Below, piece by piece: positions 53,227 to 61,713 of a DNA stretch of 64,000 nucleotides. Made by a program: the position numbers and the translations under genes. The DNA lies in IMG/VR virus record IMGVR_UViG_3300028133_000002, positions 1 to 64,000 of that record. One strand, written 5' to 3'. The notes under the pieces are model-generated. The model was not told the origin of the DNA. It was given only the letters and a program-made list of their open reading frames with translations, and made no database searches. The DNA comes from a virus. Position 1 is the first letter of the stretch; each line of letters begins with the position of its first letter.

Positions 53227-54162
53227 ATGTCTGATTTTCTATGGGTTGAAAAATACCGTCCTCGCACTGTTGAACAAGCTATCCTTCCTTTGTCCCTCAA
53301 GGAAACATTTCGACAGATTATTTCTACTGGTGAATTGCCTAATATGCTTTTCACTGGTACTGCCGGCGTTGGTAAGACTACCATTGCTCGAGCTTTGTGT
53401 AATGAGCTCGACCTAGATTATATTCTAGTTAATGGTTCGGAAGAGGGAAACATCGATACCTTGCGTAATAAAGTGAAACAGTTTGCCTCCACTGTTTCAC
53501 TTCATGGTGGATATAAGGTAGTCATCCTTGATGAAGCTGATTATCTTAATCCACAATCAACTCAGCCAGCCCTTCGTGGCTTTATTGAAGAGTTTGCGAA
53601 TAATTGTCGATTCATCTTGACGTGTAATTTCAAAAACCGTATTATTGAGCCTCTCCATTCTCGTTGTTCGGTTTATGAATTTGCTATTCCAAATGATCAA
53701 AAGCCCGAATTGGCTGGCCAATTTTTTAAACGCGCAAGTGAGATTCTACAAAAAGAAAATGTAGAATTTGTACCTGATGCAGTTGCTCAATTAATTACCA
53801 AACACTTTCCAGATTGGCGTCGTGTTCTAAATGAAATGCAGCGTTATTCTGTGTCTGGTAAAATTGATGCTGGAATGCTTGTCGATTTGAATGATACCAA
53901 TATCAAATCTCTTATGTCAGCTCTAAAAGCTAAAGACTTTAAAACTATGCGTCAATGGGTTGTTAGTAATATTGATACCGAACCTCAAGCAATCTTTCGT
54001 AAGCTATATGATTCTATGAACGAATATATAGTACCACAGTCAATTCCTCAACTAGTTTTGATCTTGGCTGACTATCAATATAAAAATGCTTTTGTCGCTG
54101 ACCATGAATTGAATGTGGTTGCTTGTATGACAGAAATTATGGCAAATGTGGAGTTTAAATAA
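53227..54162 (+). CDS. 44: Clamp loader large subunit gp44
   Basis: This 311-residue AAA+ ATPase (T4 gp44: 319) has WVEKYRPRTVEQAILP at the N-terminus, Walker A GTAGVGKTT (44-52), Walker B VVILDEADYL (~98-107), sensor I CNFKNRI and the SRC motif HSRCSVYEF (~144-152). Four gp44 subunits and one gp62 open the gp45 clamp at primer ends. The start follows GGAG. It overlaps the glutaredoxin gene by one base (TAATG). Promoted by the early-type promoter at 53171. Confidence 0.96.
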   Translation: MSDFLWVEKYRPRTVEQAILPLSLKETFRQIISTGELPNMLFTGTAGVGKTTIARALCNELDLDYILVNGSEEGNIDTLRNKVKQFASTVSLHGGYKVVILDEADYLNPQSTQPALRGFIEEFANNCRFILTCNFKNRIIEPLHSRCSVYEFAIPNDQKPELAGQFFKRASEILQKENVEFVPDAVAQLITKHFPDWRRVLNEMQRYSVSGKIDAGMLVDLNDTNIKSLMSALKAKDFKTMRQWVVSNIDTEPQAIFRKLYDSMNEYIVPQSIPQLVLILADYQYKNAFVADHELNVVACMTEIMANVEFK

Positions 54163-54383
54163 TGCTAACAGTGTATTCAAAAAATAATTGTCCCTATTGT
54201 GTTAAACTAAAAAATCAACTTAATACTTGGGGAATTGCGTTTGAAGAAGTAAATATTGAACAAGATAAAGATGCAAAGAGTTTTGTAGTTGAACAGGGCC
54301 ATCGAAGTGTACCTGTTCTTTATAATGAATTAGAACATATCAATCATAATAACATTACAAAAGAACAACTACTTAATCTTTGA
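54162..54383 (+). CDS. grx: Glutaredoxin
   Basis: This 73-residue protein has the glutaredoxin redox site CPYC at residues 10-13, with the typical fold start TVYSKNNCPYCVKLKNQL, the cis-proline segment SVPVLYN (~50-56) and a final helix. Glutaredoxins reduce ribonucleotide reductase and other disulphides; T4 also carries one (nrdC). Here it is inserted between gp44 and gp62, which are adjacent in T4, and starts in a TAATG overlap with gp44. Ribonucleotide reductase itself is not in the window. Confidence 0.92.
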   Translation: MLTVYSKNNCPYCVKLKNQLNTWGIAFEEVNIEQDKDAKSFVVEQGHRSVPVLYNELEHINHNNITKEQLLNL

Positions 54384-55190: not shown

Positions 55191-55219
55191 TTTACATTTG
55201 GCTAGCATTGTTGTATAAT
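55191..55219 (+). promoter_or_regulatory. Early-type promoter for the glycine-zipper gene (TTTACA-17-TATAAT)
   Basis: -35 TTTACA at 55191-55196, 17 bases, -10 TATAAT at 55214-55219, directly after regA. The bases around the -35 box (AACTGTTTACATT) match the AACTGTGTACATT context of the other early-type promoters. Confidence 0.85.
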
Positions 55220-55243
55220 ATACTTAGAAATTGGAGAAAAGTT

Positions 55244-55756
55244 ATGAAAAAGACTATCTTAGGACTTACTACGGCACTTACTCTAGCTGCTTCGAATGTT
55301 GCAGCAGCTGGCCAAACTGTATATGGTACAATTACAAACGTATCTCAAAACTGGACTTATGAAACTCGTCGAGTTCCATACGAAGATTGTACAACGGTTC
55401 GTGTTCCAGTAACTGGTAATTACCGTGGTGGATCAGCCGGTGGTGATGCTCTTGCAGGTATGATTATTGGTGGATTACTAGGTAAAGGCGTTACTGGAAA
55501 CGATCGTGGAGCCGCTGCAGGAGCTATACTCGGCGGTGTTATCGGAGCTGATAATCATCGTCCAGTAAATCGTGGCCGTGAGTATCGTGAAGAATATCGT
55601 TGTGTAACTAATTATGATTATGTTCGCGAATCAGTTCAAGCTGGCTACATTGTAGATTATATGTATGAAGGTTATCTCTATCAACTTAAAACTTTCAAAC
55701 AATATAACATTGGAGATAAAATTCGACTAAATGTTCGAGTAAGTCCAATTAATTAA
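55244..55756 (+). CDS. Secreted glycine-zipper (2TM, SlyB/17-kDa-antigen-like) protein
   Basis: The start at 55244 (GGAGA upstream) gives 170 residues with a clear signal peptide, KKTILGLTTALTLAASNVAA, and a type I cleavage site at AAAG. No lipobox Cys is present. Residues ~60-100 form a glycine zipper: GGSAGGDALAGMIIGGLLGK, GAAAGAILGGVIG. The surrounding RVPYEDC...YRCVTNYDYV supplies paired Cys residues typical of 17-kDa surface-antigen/SlyB proteins. It should act in the periplasm or outer membrane, perhaps in envelope integrity or exclusion of other phages. The upstream in-frame ATG at 55208 lies before the likely transcript start and is rejected. Confidence 0.8.
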   Translation: MKKTILGLTTALTLAASNVAAAGQTVYGTITNVSQNWTYETRRVPYEDCTTVRVPVTGNYRGGSAGGDALAGMIIGGLLGKGVTGNDRGAAAGAILGGVIGADNHRPVNRGREYREEYRCVTNYDYVRESVQAGYIVDYMYEGYLYQLKTFKQYNIGDKIRLNVRVSPIN

Positions 55757-55768
55757 GAAAGATTTATA

Positions 55769-56362
55769 ATGAAAATTGAAAGCCAATTTATAGGATCTTC
55801 TTTTATAGAAGAAGATCTATGCGATAATCTAATTCGCTATTTTGATTCTTGGATTCATGAAGCAGCTCCAGGCACAATCGGCCTCAATAGTGGCAAAAAG
55901 CCTTCTAGTGCAGATATTAACTATGACGTAAAAAACAGCTTAGACTTACTTATTGGAGATATAGATCTTCAAGAGGCATACTATAACTCTCTAAAAAGAA
56001 ATTTGGTAGATGATTACAAAAAAGAGTATAGCTGTTCAGACGACAATGCGCCTTGGGGTATTATCCAGGATTCTCAAATACAAAAATATCCTATAAAAAA
56101 TGGTGGCTTTAAAGCATGGCACTGCGAAAGAAGCTCTGGAGTGGTTCAGCCGAATGCATCTAGACATTTAGTTTATATGACATATTTAAACGATATTAAT
56201 GATGGAGGCGAAACAGAATTTTTATATCAAAATTTAAAAATTAAACCTAAAAAAGGCTTATCTTTAGTTTGGCCAGCTGATTGGACCTTTACACATAGAG
56301 GTAACTCTGCTCCATCTGAAGAAAAATATATTGTCACAGGATGGTTTAATTATCTAGAATAG
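55769..56362 (+). CDS. 2-oxoglutarate/Fe(II)-dependent oxygenase (prolyl 4-hydroxylase-like)
   Basis: This 197-residue protein has the phage 2OG-Fe(II) oxygenase pattern: FKAWHCERSSG with iron ligands H118 and E120 (HxE instead of the common HxD), RHLVYMTYLNDINDGGETEF (~130-149), and THRGNS with H176, followed by KYIVTGWF for 2OG binding. It contains IKPKKGLSLVWPADW. Such enzymes are frequent in marine T4-like phages and may modify proteins or nucleotides; the substrate is unknown. It follows the glycine-zipper gene on the early transcript from 55191 and ends just before a late promoter. Confidence 0.88.
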   Translation: MKIESQFIGSSFIEEDLCDNLIRYFDSWIHEAAPGTIGLNSGKKPSSADINYDVKNSLDLLIGDIDLQEAYYNSLKRNLVDDYKKEYSCSDDNAPWGIIQDSQIQKYPIKNGGFKAWHCERSSGVVQPNASRHLVYMTYLNDINDGGETEFLYQNLKIKPKKGLSLVWPADWTFTHRGNSAPSEEKYIVTGWFNYLE

Positions 56363-56431: not shown

Positions 56432-56902
56432 ATGACAGGCGTTAAACAATTATTTCCACGTTCATCTTTCGTGGGTTTCGATCATCTTTTAAATGAACTC
56501 GATCAAGTAGCAACTCATGCTAACGATCATTATCCACCTCATAACATTATTAGAACTGGTGAGAATGATTATCTTATTGAGCTTGCAGTCGCAGGTTTCT
56601 CTCGTGATGAGTTATCAATTGAAGTAAAAGATCGAACTCTCGCAGTAACTGGAAATCATACTTCTAAAGGTAGAGAATTTATTCATCGTGGTATTTCGAC
56701 AAAGAAATTTAAGCGAACCTTTAGGCTGTCTGAGCACGTACAAGTGCACGGAGCAGATCTAGTAGATGGTATCCTTGCGGTAGAACTGAAGGTAATCGTC
56801 CCAGAAGAAATGCGTCCTCGTAAAATTTCAATTGGAAAAAACGAGGGTCAAAATGACACAACACATATTAACAGTACACAGCTACTCAACGAGAGCAGTT
56901 GA
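56432..56902 (+). CDS. hsp20: Small heat-shock protein Hsp20
   Basis: This 156-residue protein has an alpha-crystallin domain at ~38-130: YPPHNIIRTGENDYLIELAV, AGFSRDELSIEVKDRTLAVT and the C-terminal strand VDGILAVELKVIVPEEMRPR. The N-terminus FDHLLNELDQVATH and the IxI-like KISI near the end are typical of the IbpA class. Hsp20 chaperones are common in marine T4-like phages and probably hold unfolding capsid or scaffold proteins. It is the first gene of a late unit and its end overlaps the DUF1127 gene by 50 bases. Confidence 0.94.
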   Translation: MTGVKQLFPRSSFVGFDHLLNELDQVATHANDHYPPHNIIRTGENDYLIELAVAGFSRDELSIEVKDRTLAVTGNHTSKGREFIHRGISTKKFKRTFRLSEHVQVHGADLVDGILAVELKVIVPEEMRPRKISIGKNEGQNDTTHINSTQLLNESS

Positions 56903-57107
56903 ACTAATCCTTGAAACGCTGAAAGGCATTTACAATAATCGAATTGAGCGTAAAGCAATTCGTGAAACTGAAAAGGCTTTAAGCGCACTATCTAATAAAG
57001 ACTTAGCAGACATTGGCATCAACCGCGGCGAGATCTATGAAATCGCTAGATGTAAATCATCTATTGCCCACGTCAAAGCAAACAAAAATTTGCAGGGATG
57101 GGTATAA
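56853..57107 (+). CDS. DUF1127-type small protein
   Basis: The start at 56853 has GAGGG upstream and gives 84 residues beginning TQHILTVHS; an earlier in-frame ATG (56832) is possible. The C-terminal half, ETEKALSALSNKDLADIGIN and RGEIYEIAR, is the signature of DUF1127 (YjiS-like), small Arg-rich proteins abundant in Alphaproteobacteria and Enterobacteria. Some DUF1127 proteins bind RNA and modulate RNA turnover. The gene overlaps hsp20 by 50 bases and couples with the next gene by TAATG. Its presence in a phage suggests host capture. Confidence 0.85.
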   Translation: MTQHILTVHSYSTRAVELILETLKGIYNNRIERKAIRETEKALSALSNKDLADIGINRGEIYEIARCKSSIAHVKANKNLQGWV

Positions 57108-57277
57108 TGACTGAAGCAGTAATGAAATATGCATTTGCACCAGTTAGTGGACTCTTTAGTGGGTTTAATAACTTCTTTCTTTCATTGGGAAGAGCAAGAG
57201 CTGCAGCTGAGCTTTCGCGGATGGGTTATCACGCAGAAGCTAAATATCTAATGACTACTGATGTAGAAGATTTATAG
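57107..57277 (+). CDS. Small protein after DUF1127 (56 residues)
   Basis: This short gene starts in a TAATG overlap with the DUF1127 gene and ends with TAG at 57277. The translation begins TEAVMKYAFAPVSGLFSGFN, then NFFLSLGRARAAAELSRMGY and HAEAKYLMTTDVEDL. The ARAAAELSRMGYHAEAKYLM helix resembles the helical half of other small DUF1127-like proteins, so it may be a distant relative of its neighbour. No signal peptide is evident, though the first half is moderately hydrophobic. Function unknown. Confidence 0.72.
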   Translation: MTEAVMKYAFAPVSGLFSGFNNFFLSLGRARAAAELSRMGYHAEAKYLMTTDVEDL

Positions 57278-57311: not shown

Positions 57312-57333
57312 GGGAGGCCACGGTAAGCCTCCC
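57312..57333 (+). terminator. Hairpin between DUF1127 pair and DoxX gene (weak terminator or processing site)
   Basis: GGGAGGC (57312-57318) pairs with GCCTCCC (57327-57333) around an 8-base loop. The following ATTTATTTTAC is only moderately T-rich, so read-through into the DoxX gene is likely. No promoter of either class is visible after it. Confidence 0.6.
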
Positions 57334-57356: not shown

Positions 57357-57761
57357 ATGCTTAAGAATATTACTAATAAAATACCCGACTTTTGTATGAG
57401 TCACTGGTTGCTAAGAATTCCACTTGCAATCGTATTCCTTCAACAAGGATTTGCTAAATGGCCAATTGATGCCGAAACAGCAGCATCATGGGAACTACCT
57501 CTTTTAGTTTGGGCATTCGTTGTTCTAGGCGAAATTGGAGCAGGCATTGGACTATTAGTCGGTGGATCTCTTTATAAGTATCTAAAAGAGCTCGGCGATA
57601 TATTAACACGGTTTTCAGGTATTACTATTTGTAGTATTATGACCGGTGTTATTTGGATGGCACAACCAGAAAGTTTTACTGAAGTATTATTGTATGACAA
57701 TTTCCACGTCCTATTATGGGTAGGTGGAATGTTTTTTGCATTGAGAGGAAATAGAACATGA
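57357..57761 (+). CDS. DoxX-like four-helix membrane protein
   Basis: This 134-residue protein has four hydrophobic segments (~15-30, ~45-72, ~85-105, ~112-130). The first contains WLLRIPLAIVFLQQGFAKWP, the R-(x)n-G/Q-x-x-K signature of DoxX-family proteins, and the second contains AFVVLGEIGAGIGLLVGGSL. DoxX proteins act in the inner membrane with redox partners such as the quinol oxidase of Acidianus or thiosulphate systems. AAGGA precedes the start. The stop overlaps the cytochrome c start (ATGA). DoxX is known in bacteria; I am not aware of it as a usual T4-like phage gene, so this is a notable acquisition. Confidence 0.8.
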   Translation: MLKNITNKIPDFCMSHWLLRIPLAIVFLQQGFAKWPIDAETAASWELPLLVWAFVVLGEIGAGIGLLVGGSLYKYLKELGDILTRFSGITICSIMTGVIWMAQPESFTEVLLYDNFHVLLWVGGMFFALRGNRT

Positions 57762-58123
57762 CTAAAAACTTAATAGCATTTATTGCTTTTTTTATCGTAG
57801 CAGGTTCCACAGCGCATGCTGATAAAGCATTTCGTAAATGCGCATCTTGCCATAGTATTGAAGAAGGCGGAAAAAACGGTGCTGGACCAAACCTATGGAA
57901 CGTTATGAATCGTGGCGCAGCTGTAAATGAAGATTATCGTTATAGTAAAAAGCTATTAGCATGGGCAGAAGAAAATCCTCAATGGACTCCTGAGCTTATG
58001 GATAAGTGGCTAACCAATTCTAAAAAAATGGTAAAAGGTACTAAGATGAATTTCAAAGAAAAGAAAGAATCAAAGCGCCAAGCTATTATTGAATACCTAC
58101 AATCAATGGGTACAGAACAATAA
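57758..58123 (+). CDS. Class I cytochrome c, exported
   Basis: This 121-residue protein has a signal peptide (TKNLIAFIAFFIVAGSTAHA, cleaved after ~21) and a complete class I cytochrome c: haem site C28-A-S-C31-H32, GPNLW at 43-47 and the axial Met in GTKM (Met97), followed by the C-terminal helix KRQAIIEYLQSMG. It resembles alphaproteobacterial/mitochondrial-type soluble cytochromes, which carry electrons to terminal oxidases in the periplasm. Haem would be attached by the host Ccm system. It overlaps DoxX by ATGA and the following membrane gene. All key residues are intact, so it looks functional. Confidence 0.93.
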   Translation: MTKNLIAFIAFFIVAGSTAHADKAFRKCASCHSIEEGGKNGAGPNLWNVMNRGAAVNEDYRYSKKLLAWAEENPQWTPELMDKWLTNSKKMVKGTKMNFKEKKESKRQAIIEYLQSMGTEQ

Positions 58124-58290
58124 AAAATGCATGGCGAATATGGGCAAAAAGCTTAGGTGAAAAGGTCGGAGAGACTGACACTCAAGCAAACGTGGTTGCC
58201 GTCATAAGAACTTTCTGGTGGGTAGTCCATATTGCTACCTGCTTTATGATTATTATACACAATGGAGCAAAATTAGGATGGTGGCTATGA
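58120..58290 (+). CDS. Small membrane protein with no standard start codon (ATA start)
   Basis: The frame from 58120 to TGA at 58290 encodes 56 residues: (I/M)KNAWRIWAKSLGEKVGETD, TQANVVAVIRTFWWVVHIAT, then CFMIIIHNGAKLGWWL. The RIWAKxLGEK start and a hydrophobic segment match small conserved membrane proteins of T4-like marine phages, which begin MKN-WRIWAKALGEK. Here the expected ATG is ATA (58120-58122), overlapping the cytochrome stop. In-frame codons back to the stop at 58090 include no ATG, GTG or TTG. The next gene starts in its ATGA. Translation may be coupled or reinitiated at ATA. Confidence 0.72.
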   Translation: MKNAWRIWAKSLGEKVGETDTQANVVAVIRTFWWVVHIATCFMIIIHNGAKLGWWL

Positions 58291-58802: not shown

Positions 58803-58808
58803 ATTGTA

Positions 58809-58833
58809 GAGGGACTTCGGTCCCTCTTTTTTT
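58809..58833 (+). terminator. Strong intrinsic terminator, UUCG loop
   Basis: GAGGGAC / GTCCCTC closes a TTCG loop, followed by seven T residues. It ends the late unit that starts at 56365. Confidence 0.95.
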
Positions 58834-59187: not shown

Positions 59188-61713
59188 TTGGAATTCTACA
59201 CTAACGTAACTCGTTACGGCAACAGTCTTCTTTATCGTGGCTACAAAAACGGCCAACGTTTTGAAGACCGTATTAAATTCTCACCAACACTCTATCAAGC
59301 AGATCCAAATGGAACCGCGTATACCATGAACGGTGTGCGCGTTTCTCCACGCTTGTTTGATACAATGCGCGAAGTAAAAGATTATCAGCAAGCATGGAAA
59401 GATGTTGGTGGTGCTGATAAAACTCTATACGGTCAAACTAACTTTGTCTCTTCTTTTATTCAAGAAAAGTTTCCAGACAATATTGAATTTGATCGTGATA
59501 TTATTAATGTGTCAACAATCGATATTGAAGTTGCCTCTGATGATGGATTCCCAACTCCAGAAGAAGCAGCTTATCCAGTAATCTCAATTACTATTAAAAA
59601 CAATATTGATAACATTTATTATGTCTGGGGTCTATATGATTATAATCCTTCTGCTTGTACACTTGGTAGTGTCACTGCTAATGATATTGTTTATGTTCAA
59701 TGTCAAGACGAGCGAGAATTACTCTTACGCTTTCTTGCTCATTGGAATTCAGATCGTCATTGCCCTGATGTTATTACTGGTTGGAATACCCGCTTCTTCG
59801 ATATTCCTTACCTCGTAAATCGTATTACTAAATTCATTGGCGAAGACTTTGCTAAAAAGATGTCACCTTGGGGTGTAGTCAATCCTCGATCTGTAACAAC
59901 TATGGGTCGTGAACAACAATACTATAATCTTGAAGGTATTGCATCTCTTGATTATCTTGAACTTTTCAAAAAGTTTGGTTACTCATATGGTGCTCAAGAA
60001 TCCTATAAACTAGATCATATTGGTCACGTTGTTCTTGGTGAACGTAAACTTTCTTACGAAGAATTCTCTTCACTTCATTCTCTTTACAAACACGACTTTC
60101 AAAAGTTTATTGACTATAATATCAAAGATGTTGAACTAGTTGATCGTCTTGAAGATAAGATGGGTTTGATTACCCTTGCACTTACTATGGCTTATCGTGG
60201 TGGTGTAAACTATACTGACACTCTCGGCACAACCGCGATCTGGGATTCAATTATCTTTCGAGATCTATCTCAACAAGGTATTGTTATTCCTGCTGCTGAA
60301 GACAAATTCAAATCCGATTATCCAGGTGGCTACGTAAAACCGCCTCAAATTGGTTTACACGAATGGGTTGTTTCTTTTGACTTGGCTTCTCTTTATCCAA
60401 ACATTATTGTTCAATGGAATATGTCGCCTGAAACTATTGTCGATGGTAAGCGTGAACAAATGGATCCAGACATGGCCTTGGCTGGCAATATGCCGCAACT
60501 AAAAGGTGACTATGCGCTTGCAGCTAATGGTGTATATTTTACCAAAGAAAAGCAGGGCGTATTACCAAAAATCATTGTTGACTATTACAATGAACGTAAA
60601 GCTGTTAAGAAACGCATGTTGGCTTCTCAACAAGAACTTGAAACAATTGATAAATCAAATGTCGTTGAAAAATATCGAGTTGAGCGTGATATTGCCCGTT
60701 ATGAAAACCAGCAAATGGCGATTAAAATTCTGTTGAATTCGCTTTATGGCGCATTGGGCAACAAATACTTTCGTTACTTTGATCTTCGTGTTGCTGAAGG
60801 TATTACCTTAACTGGTCAAACTGTTATTCGTTGGGCTGAACGTTCTGTAAACGAATTTATGAATAAAATTGTTGGTACTGATAACAAAGACTATGTAATC
60901 GCAATTGATACTGATTCTGTCTACGTTAATTTTGGCCCTTTAGTTGATAAGTATGTAAAAGATAACCAAGTAGATAATATTGCTCAAATATGCAAAGATC
61001 AATTTGAGCCAATGCTTGAAAAATCATATCAAAATTTATATGATATGTTTAATTGCTATATGCCTCGTATGGAAATGGACCGTGAAGCAATTGCTGATCG
61101 TGGCATCTGGACTGCTAAAAAACGTTATATCTTGAATGTTCATGACAATGAAGGTGTTCGTTATGCTGAACCAAAACTTAAGATCATGGGTATTGAAGCT
61201 ATTAAGTCTTCAACTCCATCAGCGTGTCGTGATGCACTGAAAGCTTTGTTCAAAGTAATTGTAACCGGTGATGAAGGTGCTACACAAAAAGCAATTCAAC
61301 AATTCAAAGATTATTTTGTTACATTGCCACCAGAAAATGTATCCTTTCCACGTGGTGTAAATGACACCATCAAATGGCGGGATCGTAAACTGATCTATAA
61401 AAAGGGTACTCCAATCCATGTACGTGGGGCACTCCTATATAATCATAATGTCAAAGACAAAAGCCTTGATAAGAAATATACACTTATTCAAAACGGTGAA
61501 AAGATCAAGTTTTGTTATTTGAAAATGCCAAATCCAATCAGAGAAAATGTTATTTCATTCCCTGATTATCTTCCACAAGAATTACAGCTTCATAAATACA
61601 TTGACTATGATCTGCAATTCAAAAAAACCTTTTTGGATCCAATTGAACCAATCCTAGATGCTATTGGCTGGTCTGTTGAAGAAAAGGTATCAATTGAAGA
61701 CTTCTTTGCATAA
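59188..61713 (+). CDS. 43: DNA polymerase gp43 (family B, TTG start)
   Basis: The 841-residue family B polymerase (T4: 898) has exonuclease motif I IDIEV (~111-115), pol motif A DLASLYPNI (~398-406), motif B KILLNSLYGALGNKYF (~511-526) and motif C DTDSVYV (~574-580). The N-terminus FYTNVTRYGNSLLYRGY is the gp43 start. The start is TTG at 59188 with GGAGG 8 bases upstream; the nearby ATG at 59174 is out of frame and stops quickly. No intron or intein interrupts the motifs. It replicates the genome with gp45, gp44 and gp62 and proofreads. Confidence 0.96.
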   Translation: MEFYTNVTRYGNSLLYRGYKNGQRFEDRIKFSPTLYQADPNGTAYTMNGVRVSPRLFDTMREVKDYQQAWKDVGGADKTLYGQTNFVSSFIQEKFPDNIEFDRDIINVSTIDIEVASDDGFPTPEEAAYPVISITIKNNIDNIYYVWGLYDYNPSACTLGSVTANDIVYVQCQDERELLLRFLAHWNSDRHCPDVITGWNTRFFDIPYLVNRITKFIGEDFAKKMSPWGVVNPRSVTTMGREQQYYNLEGIASLDYLELFKKFGYSYGAQESYKLDHIGHVVLGERKLSYEEFSSLHSLYKHDFQKFIDYNIKDVELVDRLEDKMGLITLALTMAYRGGVNYTDTLGTTAIWDSIIFRDLSQQGIVIPAAEDKFKSDYPGGYVKPPQIGLHEWVVSFDLASLYPNIIVQWNMSPETIVDGKREQMDPDMALAGNMPQLKGDYALAANGVYFTKEKQGVLPKIIVDYYNERKAVKKRMLASQQELETIDKSNVVEKYRVERDIARYENQQMAIKILLNSLYGALGNKYFRYFDLRVAEGITLTGQTVIRWAERSVNEFMNKIVGTDNKDYVIAIDTDSVYVNFGPLVDKYVKDNQVDNIAQICKDQFEPMLEKSYQNLYDMFNCYMPRMEMDREAIADRGIWTAKKRYILNVHDNEGVRYAEPKLKIMGIEAIKSSTPSACRDALKALFKVIVTGDEGATQKAIQQFKDYFVTLPPENVSFPRGVNDTIKWRDRKLIYKKGTPIHVRGALLYNHNVKDKSLDKKYTLIQNGEKIKFCYLKMPNPIRENVISFPDYLPQELQLHKYIDYDLQFKKTFLDPIEPILDAIGWSVEEKVSIEDFFA

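Follow-up and report, generated by a model that had tools for sequence, protein, structure and literature searches.

Cyanophage petE plastocyanin, PTOX and psbA/D have been proposed to sustain the flow of electrons and the supply of energy in the infected cell (PMC5082946). A phage ALA synthase (vAlaS) was proposed, in passages of PMC11480375, to sustain haem for respiratory enzymes, and the passages searched did not describe cytochrome c, pseudoazurin, DoxX or an oxidase cassette in phages. Electron-transport genes in viromes were treated in general terms by Hurwitz et al. 2013 (PMC4053976). In Paracoccus, cytochrome cd1 has two alternative donors in vivo, cytochrome c550 and pseudoazurin (PMC6872814).

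The locus studied here lies in the window, that is, the whole stretch of 64,000 nucleotides that was analysed (positions 1 to 64,000 of the 70,835-base virus record IMGVR_UViG_3300028133_000002). Like the cyanophages with petE and PTOX, the T4-like marine phages described below carry a soluble copper carrier and, in some cases, a terminal oxidase. In contrast to the cyanophage genes, however, the carriers are respiratory (mitochondrial-type cytochrome c and pseudoazurin), their partners are related to the aa3 oxidase, the nearest bacterial relatives are non-cyanobacterial, and DoxX is linked. By analogy, the phage cassette may work in the manner of the cyanophage plastocyanin and PTOX genes, but for heterotrophic respiration. 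The phage carriers belong to the same two families as those of Paracoccus; a single Paracoccus cell has both, whereas every carrier-bearing phage record encodes just one of the two. The Paracoccus result is reportedly that of Pearson et al. 2003. Within the literature covered, outside which most subscription papers and preprints fall, a phage pseudoazurin, DoxX together with a respiratory cytochrome c, and a phage aa3 oxidase were undescribed.

Gene layout of the window locus

The portal and polymerase proteins place the window phage among the T4-like marine phages. Of the deposited genomes, those of Phage C48C1, Methylophilales phage Melnitz and Pelagibacter phage Mosig are the nearest. Phage C48C1, the best match in the tblastn search with gp43 (55%), has Hsp20 and gp43 and lacks the cassette, and no relatives of DoxX or the cytochrome were detected in 50,697 deposited phage records. 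The cassettes recur at one site, between Hsp20/DUF1127 and gp43. The DUF1127 protein and its 59-residue partner accompany the cassette in many phages, and further genes lie upstream in the window (Table 1).

Table 1. Features of the window and of related viral contigs
Feature	Location	Strand	Evidence
Glutaredoxin-like protein, upstream	window 54162-54383		by eye
Exported glycine-zipper protein, upstream	window 55208-55756		
2OG oxygenase/prolyl-hydroxylase-like protein, upstream	window 55769-56362		by eye
Hsp20 small heat-shock protein, conserved landmark to the left of the cassette site	56432..56902	+	PF00011 6.9e-17, phrog_432 1e-33
DUF1127 protein, left landmark (with 59-aa partner, 56832-57277)	56832..57107	+	PF06568 7.3e-7
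59-aa protein, GRARAAAELSRMG motif, left landmark	57098..57277	+	tblastn across loci
Intrinsic-terminator-like hairpin 5' of DoxX	57312..57333	+	consensus scan; RNA fold z = -1.9
DoxX-family four-helix membrane protein, 134 aa	57357..57761	+	PF07681, AlphaFold, 389 viral contigs
Exported class I (mitochondrial / c550-like) cytochrome c, 121 aa	57758..58123	+	PF00034, 2yk3
56-residue single-pass membrane protein, phrog_1679	58120..58290	+	PHROG match 5.1e-13
phrog_1811 protein, ~70 aa, ordinary phage neighbour	58287..58499	+	PHROG 1e-28
Intrinsic-terminator-like hairpin with T run, 3' of 85-aa gene	58808..58827	+	consensus scan
DNA polymerase gp43, right landmark	59188..61713	+	tblastn to 2,602 phage records
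G037 oxidase cassette	L376 5990-11599 (G037:C1, IMGVR_UViG_3300027859_000890)		
Oxidase and haem genes of a viral contig	L387 5-6469		
COX1 and haem oxygenase of a 194-kb viral contig	L388 4995-6557 and 10722-11270		
Two-helix membrane protein, example	L037 4681-5037		family alignment A5
SufE (Fe-S metabolism) next to or near DoxX, also in L129, L196 and L242	L009 6754-8288		

The three frames that the sequence-only reading had described as overlapping head to tail were present exactly where it placed them. At the first junction, the DoxX stop and the cytochrome start overlap as ATGA with AGGA, a ribosome-binding-like site, upstream. The third frame, a point that the sequence-only reading had missed, contains no ATG, GTG or TTG, and the only possible start is an ATA that overlaps the cytochrome stop as ATAA. 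The ATA is common to the window and three other contigs (L001, L002 and L019) with the remaining frame conserved, and the corresponding start is ATG in L043 and L057 and TTG in L129 and L232. The L019 gene is about 97% identical to that of the window, with a dN/dS of 0.06 based on about five changes only. AUA initiation coupled to the upstream stop is possible.

In three contigs (L003, L006 and L008), the cytochrome leads straight into the next gene without phrog_1679, and in the first two that gene directly overlaps the stop of the cytochrome. The trio as a unit was therefore rejected, since phrog_1679 is present or absent independently of the cytochrome; the 56-residue protein, which had been counted as part of the module, belongs to a separate phage family and is an optional neighbour that is not needed. 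From L003 and L006, the start of the phrog_1811 gene in the window was inferred to be the ATG at 58287, in an ATGA overlap with the preceding stop, and four genes are therefore chained. The hairpin 5' of DoxX is a probable start boundary of a transcription unit, and that 3' of the 85-aa gene is the probable end of a unit comprising DoxX, the cytochrome, the 56-residue protein, phrog_1811 and the 85-residue protein. The two terminator-like hairpins thus suggest one transcription unit.

DoxX and the cytochrome

The window DoxX matched PF07681 over residues 18-69 with 25.9 bits, above the gathering score of 23.6, and its AlphaFold model (pLDDT 84.5) has four long helices (20-34, 49-71, 77-101 and 115-130) in addition to short ones. 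It thus resembles the DoxX/DoxD family in both sequence and four-helix layout, as the sequence-only reading had proposed. Relatives were found in 389 IMG/VR contigs, which makes DoxX the most widespread member of the cassette, and it is under purifying selection (dN/dS = 0.08). Bacterial relatives reach 67% identity, the closest being short marine proteobacterial DoxX proteins. No significant match was obtained in fold comparisons against PDB and BFVD, no solved homologue was found, and the neighbourhoods of bacterial DoxX genes showed no consistent partner gene. A serine-hydroxymethyltransferase-like gene was seen by eye near DoxX in L009.

Mycobacterial DoxX acts with SodA, and DoxD is a thiosulfate:quinone oxidoreductase. 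DoxX could accordingly be the functional centre of the locus, a thiol/sulfur or oxidative-stress membrane oxidoreductase whose electrons are only drained by the carrier, and its wide distribution, the adjoining genes for SufE (L009/L203) and glutaredoxin (L026), and a methionine-sulfoxide-reductase-like gene seen by eye beside one bacterial relative are in line with such a role. We regard this as unlikely, however: many carrier-bearing records have no DoxX, it is oxidase genes that join the cassette instead, and neither the DoxA partner of DoxDA nor a superoxide dismutase domain was seen among the ten window proteins scanned. We therefore assign DoxX a putative role as membrane partner only and leave its reaction out of the assignment.

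The second protein had been read as an exported class I cytochrome c with intact ligands, and this was borne out. It has a signal sequence, the haem motif CASCH and the distal Met in KGTKM, and matches PF00034 (E = 7.6e-10); its profile matches solved cytochromes c, the best being 2yk3 (1.9e-24). It scored 47.8 bits against the equivalog cut-off of 240 for NCBIfam NF043008 (cytochrome c550 CycA); we class it as a relative and do not file it as CycA. Relatives were found in 59 IMG/VR contigs, and CxxCH and KGTKM were kept in 68 of the 76 copies from phages that were scanned (some contigs counted more than once). Thirty phage cytochromes form one clade (SH-aLRT 98), with one viral sequence (L307) falling outside, and dN/dS values of 0.17-0.29 indicate purifying selection. 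The gene order varies, DoxX preceding the cytochrome in the window and L011 and following it in L009. The pairing of DoxX and the cytochrome is more than chance, since it recurs in independent contigs under purifying selection.

Cytochrome c and pseudoazurin as alternative carriers

In most DoxX loci without the cytochrome, an exported pseudoazurin is encoded near DoxX. The phage protein matched PF00127 (4.4e-16) and solved pseudoazurins (3tu6, 1.8e-33), and the type-1 copper ligands His, Cys, His and Met were present in 143 of 143 copies (same-contig repeats included). Relatives occur in at least 346 viral contigs. The one pseudoazurin scanned against NCBIfam TIGR02375 fell just below the equivalog cut-off (105.7 against 109.85 bits), and "pseudoazurin" here denotes a wider family than that equivalog. 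The only match among deposited phages was cyanophage plastocyanin (25%), and phrog_515 PetE was matched at 1.7e-7.

When 50 long viral records, recruited for having a carrier or DoxX, were searched whole, pseudoazurin was found in 29, the cytochrome in 17, neither in 4 and both in none. The hypergeometric figure for this exclusion was 6e-10, which we do not count as proof because the records were recruited by carrier or DoxX. Recruitment by DoxX alone is a fairer test. Among 53 distinct DoxX genes so obtained, 33 were accompanied by pseudoazurin, 4 by the cytochrome and 16 by no carrier; for those flanked by 2 kb or more on each side, the corresponding numbers were 22, 2 and 6. No DoxX gene in either set had both. 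In addition, the carriers were always on the DoxX strand, 26 of 37 within about 310 bp. It is apparent that the two carriers alternate exclusively at these loci. In the gp43 tree at least four carrier exchanges were found, one of them inside a close clade.

DoxX was detected in 30 of the 50 long records; 12 of the 17 cytochrome-bearing ones lacked a detected DoxX, and four DoxX-bearing ones had neither carrier, both kinds possibly being fragments. The occurrence of the cytochrome without DoxX, or the reverse, which at random would speak against the module as first proposed, was thus observed in part. The pattern is nevertheless not random, since DoxX without the cytochrome mostly accompanies pseudoazurin. 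The phage pseudoazurins mingle in the tree with those of SAR116, Planktomarina and Pelagibacterales genomes; from this tree and the identity of up to 67% to bacterial DoxX proteins, the hosts are probably marine Alphaproteobacteria.

Oxidase genes and a respiratory reading of the cassette

A COX4_pro_2-like membrane protein of 53-76 residues, which resembles subunit IV of the aa3 oxidase, occurs with either carrier, in 29 of the 50 long records. Twenty-eight of 31 members matched PF07835 at E<=0.1 (best 3.6e-6), and a typical member scored 20.3 bits, just under the gathering score of 22. Neither this protein nor oxidase genes were found in the window's own record. A two-helix membrane protein of 93-142 residues, with an invariant His and a C-terminal GEH, is constantly near the carriers; comparison of its fold against PDB gave no significant match.

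A COX1 search revealed one record, G037 (134,166 bases), in which oxidase genes directly precede the cassette, in the order coxB-ctaG-coxA-TM3a-COX4like-DoxX-pseudoazurin, with the two-helix protein directly 3' of coxA. The matches were 9.1e-159 for COX1, 1.2e-45 for COX2 and 1.5e-56 for CtaG. The same record contains phage families, namely a clamp loader, thymidylate synthase, endolysin, tail-fibre and endonuclease, and a second assembly from a second metagenome (L386) was 98% identical to its cassette over 8 kb. Another viral contig (L387) encodes an ALA-synthase-like aminotransferase, alternative oxidase, ClpP, COX2, COX1 and CtaG, and a further one (L388) has COX1 and haem oxygenase 4 kb apart; COX1 was also noted, by eye only, in viral contigs L389 and L390. 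The haem/CuB ligands and K-channel lysine motif of COX1 and the CuA motif of COX2 are intact in G037 and L387, and these oxidases are therefore of the cytochrome c oxidase type. As in the vAlaS phages of the PMC11480375 passages, ALA synthase was present, above the NCBIfam cut-off, in 5 of 50 cassette-bearing records.

Relatives of the cassette genes occur in marine Alphaproteobacteria and Betaproteobacteria, as would be expected if host genes had been captured by chance, or had entered by contamination, and were functionless in the phage. This is very improbable, given the single clade of 30 phage cytochromes, the recurrence of the cassettes between Hsp20/DUF1127 and gp43 under purifying selection, and the oxidase cassette lying within phage genes in two independent assemblies. 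On the grounds of this clade, the selection and the oxidase cassette amid phage genes in both assemblies, contamination was rejected.

The carrier might instead serve a nitrite, nitric oxide or nitrous oxide reductase or a cytochrome c peroxidase, in denitrification or peroxide removal and not in aerobic respiration. The cd1 nitrite reductase is known to accept electrons from either cytochrome c550 or pseudoazurin, both of which have also been reported as donors for NorC (PMC6872814), and viruses of OMZ waters with nirK/norB have been published (PMC8115048). Beside the cassette, however, the enzymes encoded are subunits of the aa3 oxidase and a protein resembling its subunit IV, and no reductase was seen in the loci read, which makes such a role doubtful.

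The host membrane is a frequent target of small membrane proteins of phages. The cassette could thus divert or weaken host respiration, as an electron sink or by a lowered proton-motive force, a block to superinfection or the timing of lysis, and a non-pumping alternative oxidase does lie beside the cytochrome oxidase genes in one viral contig. Against this, neither the haem-copper and CuA ligands nor the lysine motif of the K-channel has been lost from the phage oxidases, and genes for copper assembly accompany them, as would suit a functional enzyme; we consider a weakening effect quite improbable.

It appears reasonably probable to us that the two window genes are one form of a cassette for the respiratory chain in uncultured T4-like marine phages, a grading that covers the following explanation as a whole, from bc1 through the carrier to the aa3 oxidase, with the small proteins and the energy supply. 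The phage would express its own periplasmic one-electron carrier, cytochrome c in the window and pseudoazurin in most relatives, which would accept electrons from the quinol-oxidising bc1 complex of the host and pass them to an aa3-type cytochrome c oxidase of the host or the phage. Proton-motive force and ATP supply would thereby be kept up while host synthesis is shut down. The COX4-like protein, DoxX and the two-helix protein would probably have a part in assembling or altering the terminal oxidase or its contacts with quinone or carrier, and some phages additionally encode oxidase subunits I and II with the copper chaperone CtaG. The electron-transport module of the sequence-only reading thus survives as a soluble carrier beside DoxX in many phages, with oxidase genes in few, and not as a trio.

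Hundreds of uncultured relatives supply a carrier beside DoxX. Based on this cassette and the oxidase core in a few phages, these viruses probably keep up or re-route the aerobic respiration of the host. There is perhaps an even chance that uncultured T4-like phages, as a widespread group infecting marine heterotrophs, encode a replaceable terminal segment of the aerobic respiratory chain, ranging from a carrier alone, as in the window, to a full coxB-ctaG-coxA oxidase accompanied by pseudoazurin and genes of haem biosynthesis; part of the respiration of the infected cell would then pass through viral proteins. From the swap at one locus between a cytochrome c and a blue copper protein it is predicted that either carrier can serve the same oxidase, and which of them a phage has may depend on the host or the iron/copper supply. 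Viral core subunits of cytochrome c oxidase would directly attest to the control of oxygen consumption by viruses. If the proposed explanation is true, the cassette would be the counterpart, in phages of non-photosynthetic marine bacteria, of the photosynthetic electron-transport genes of cyanophages, and viruses would also control aerobic respiration, the main energy process of ocean heterotrophs.
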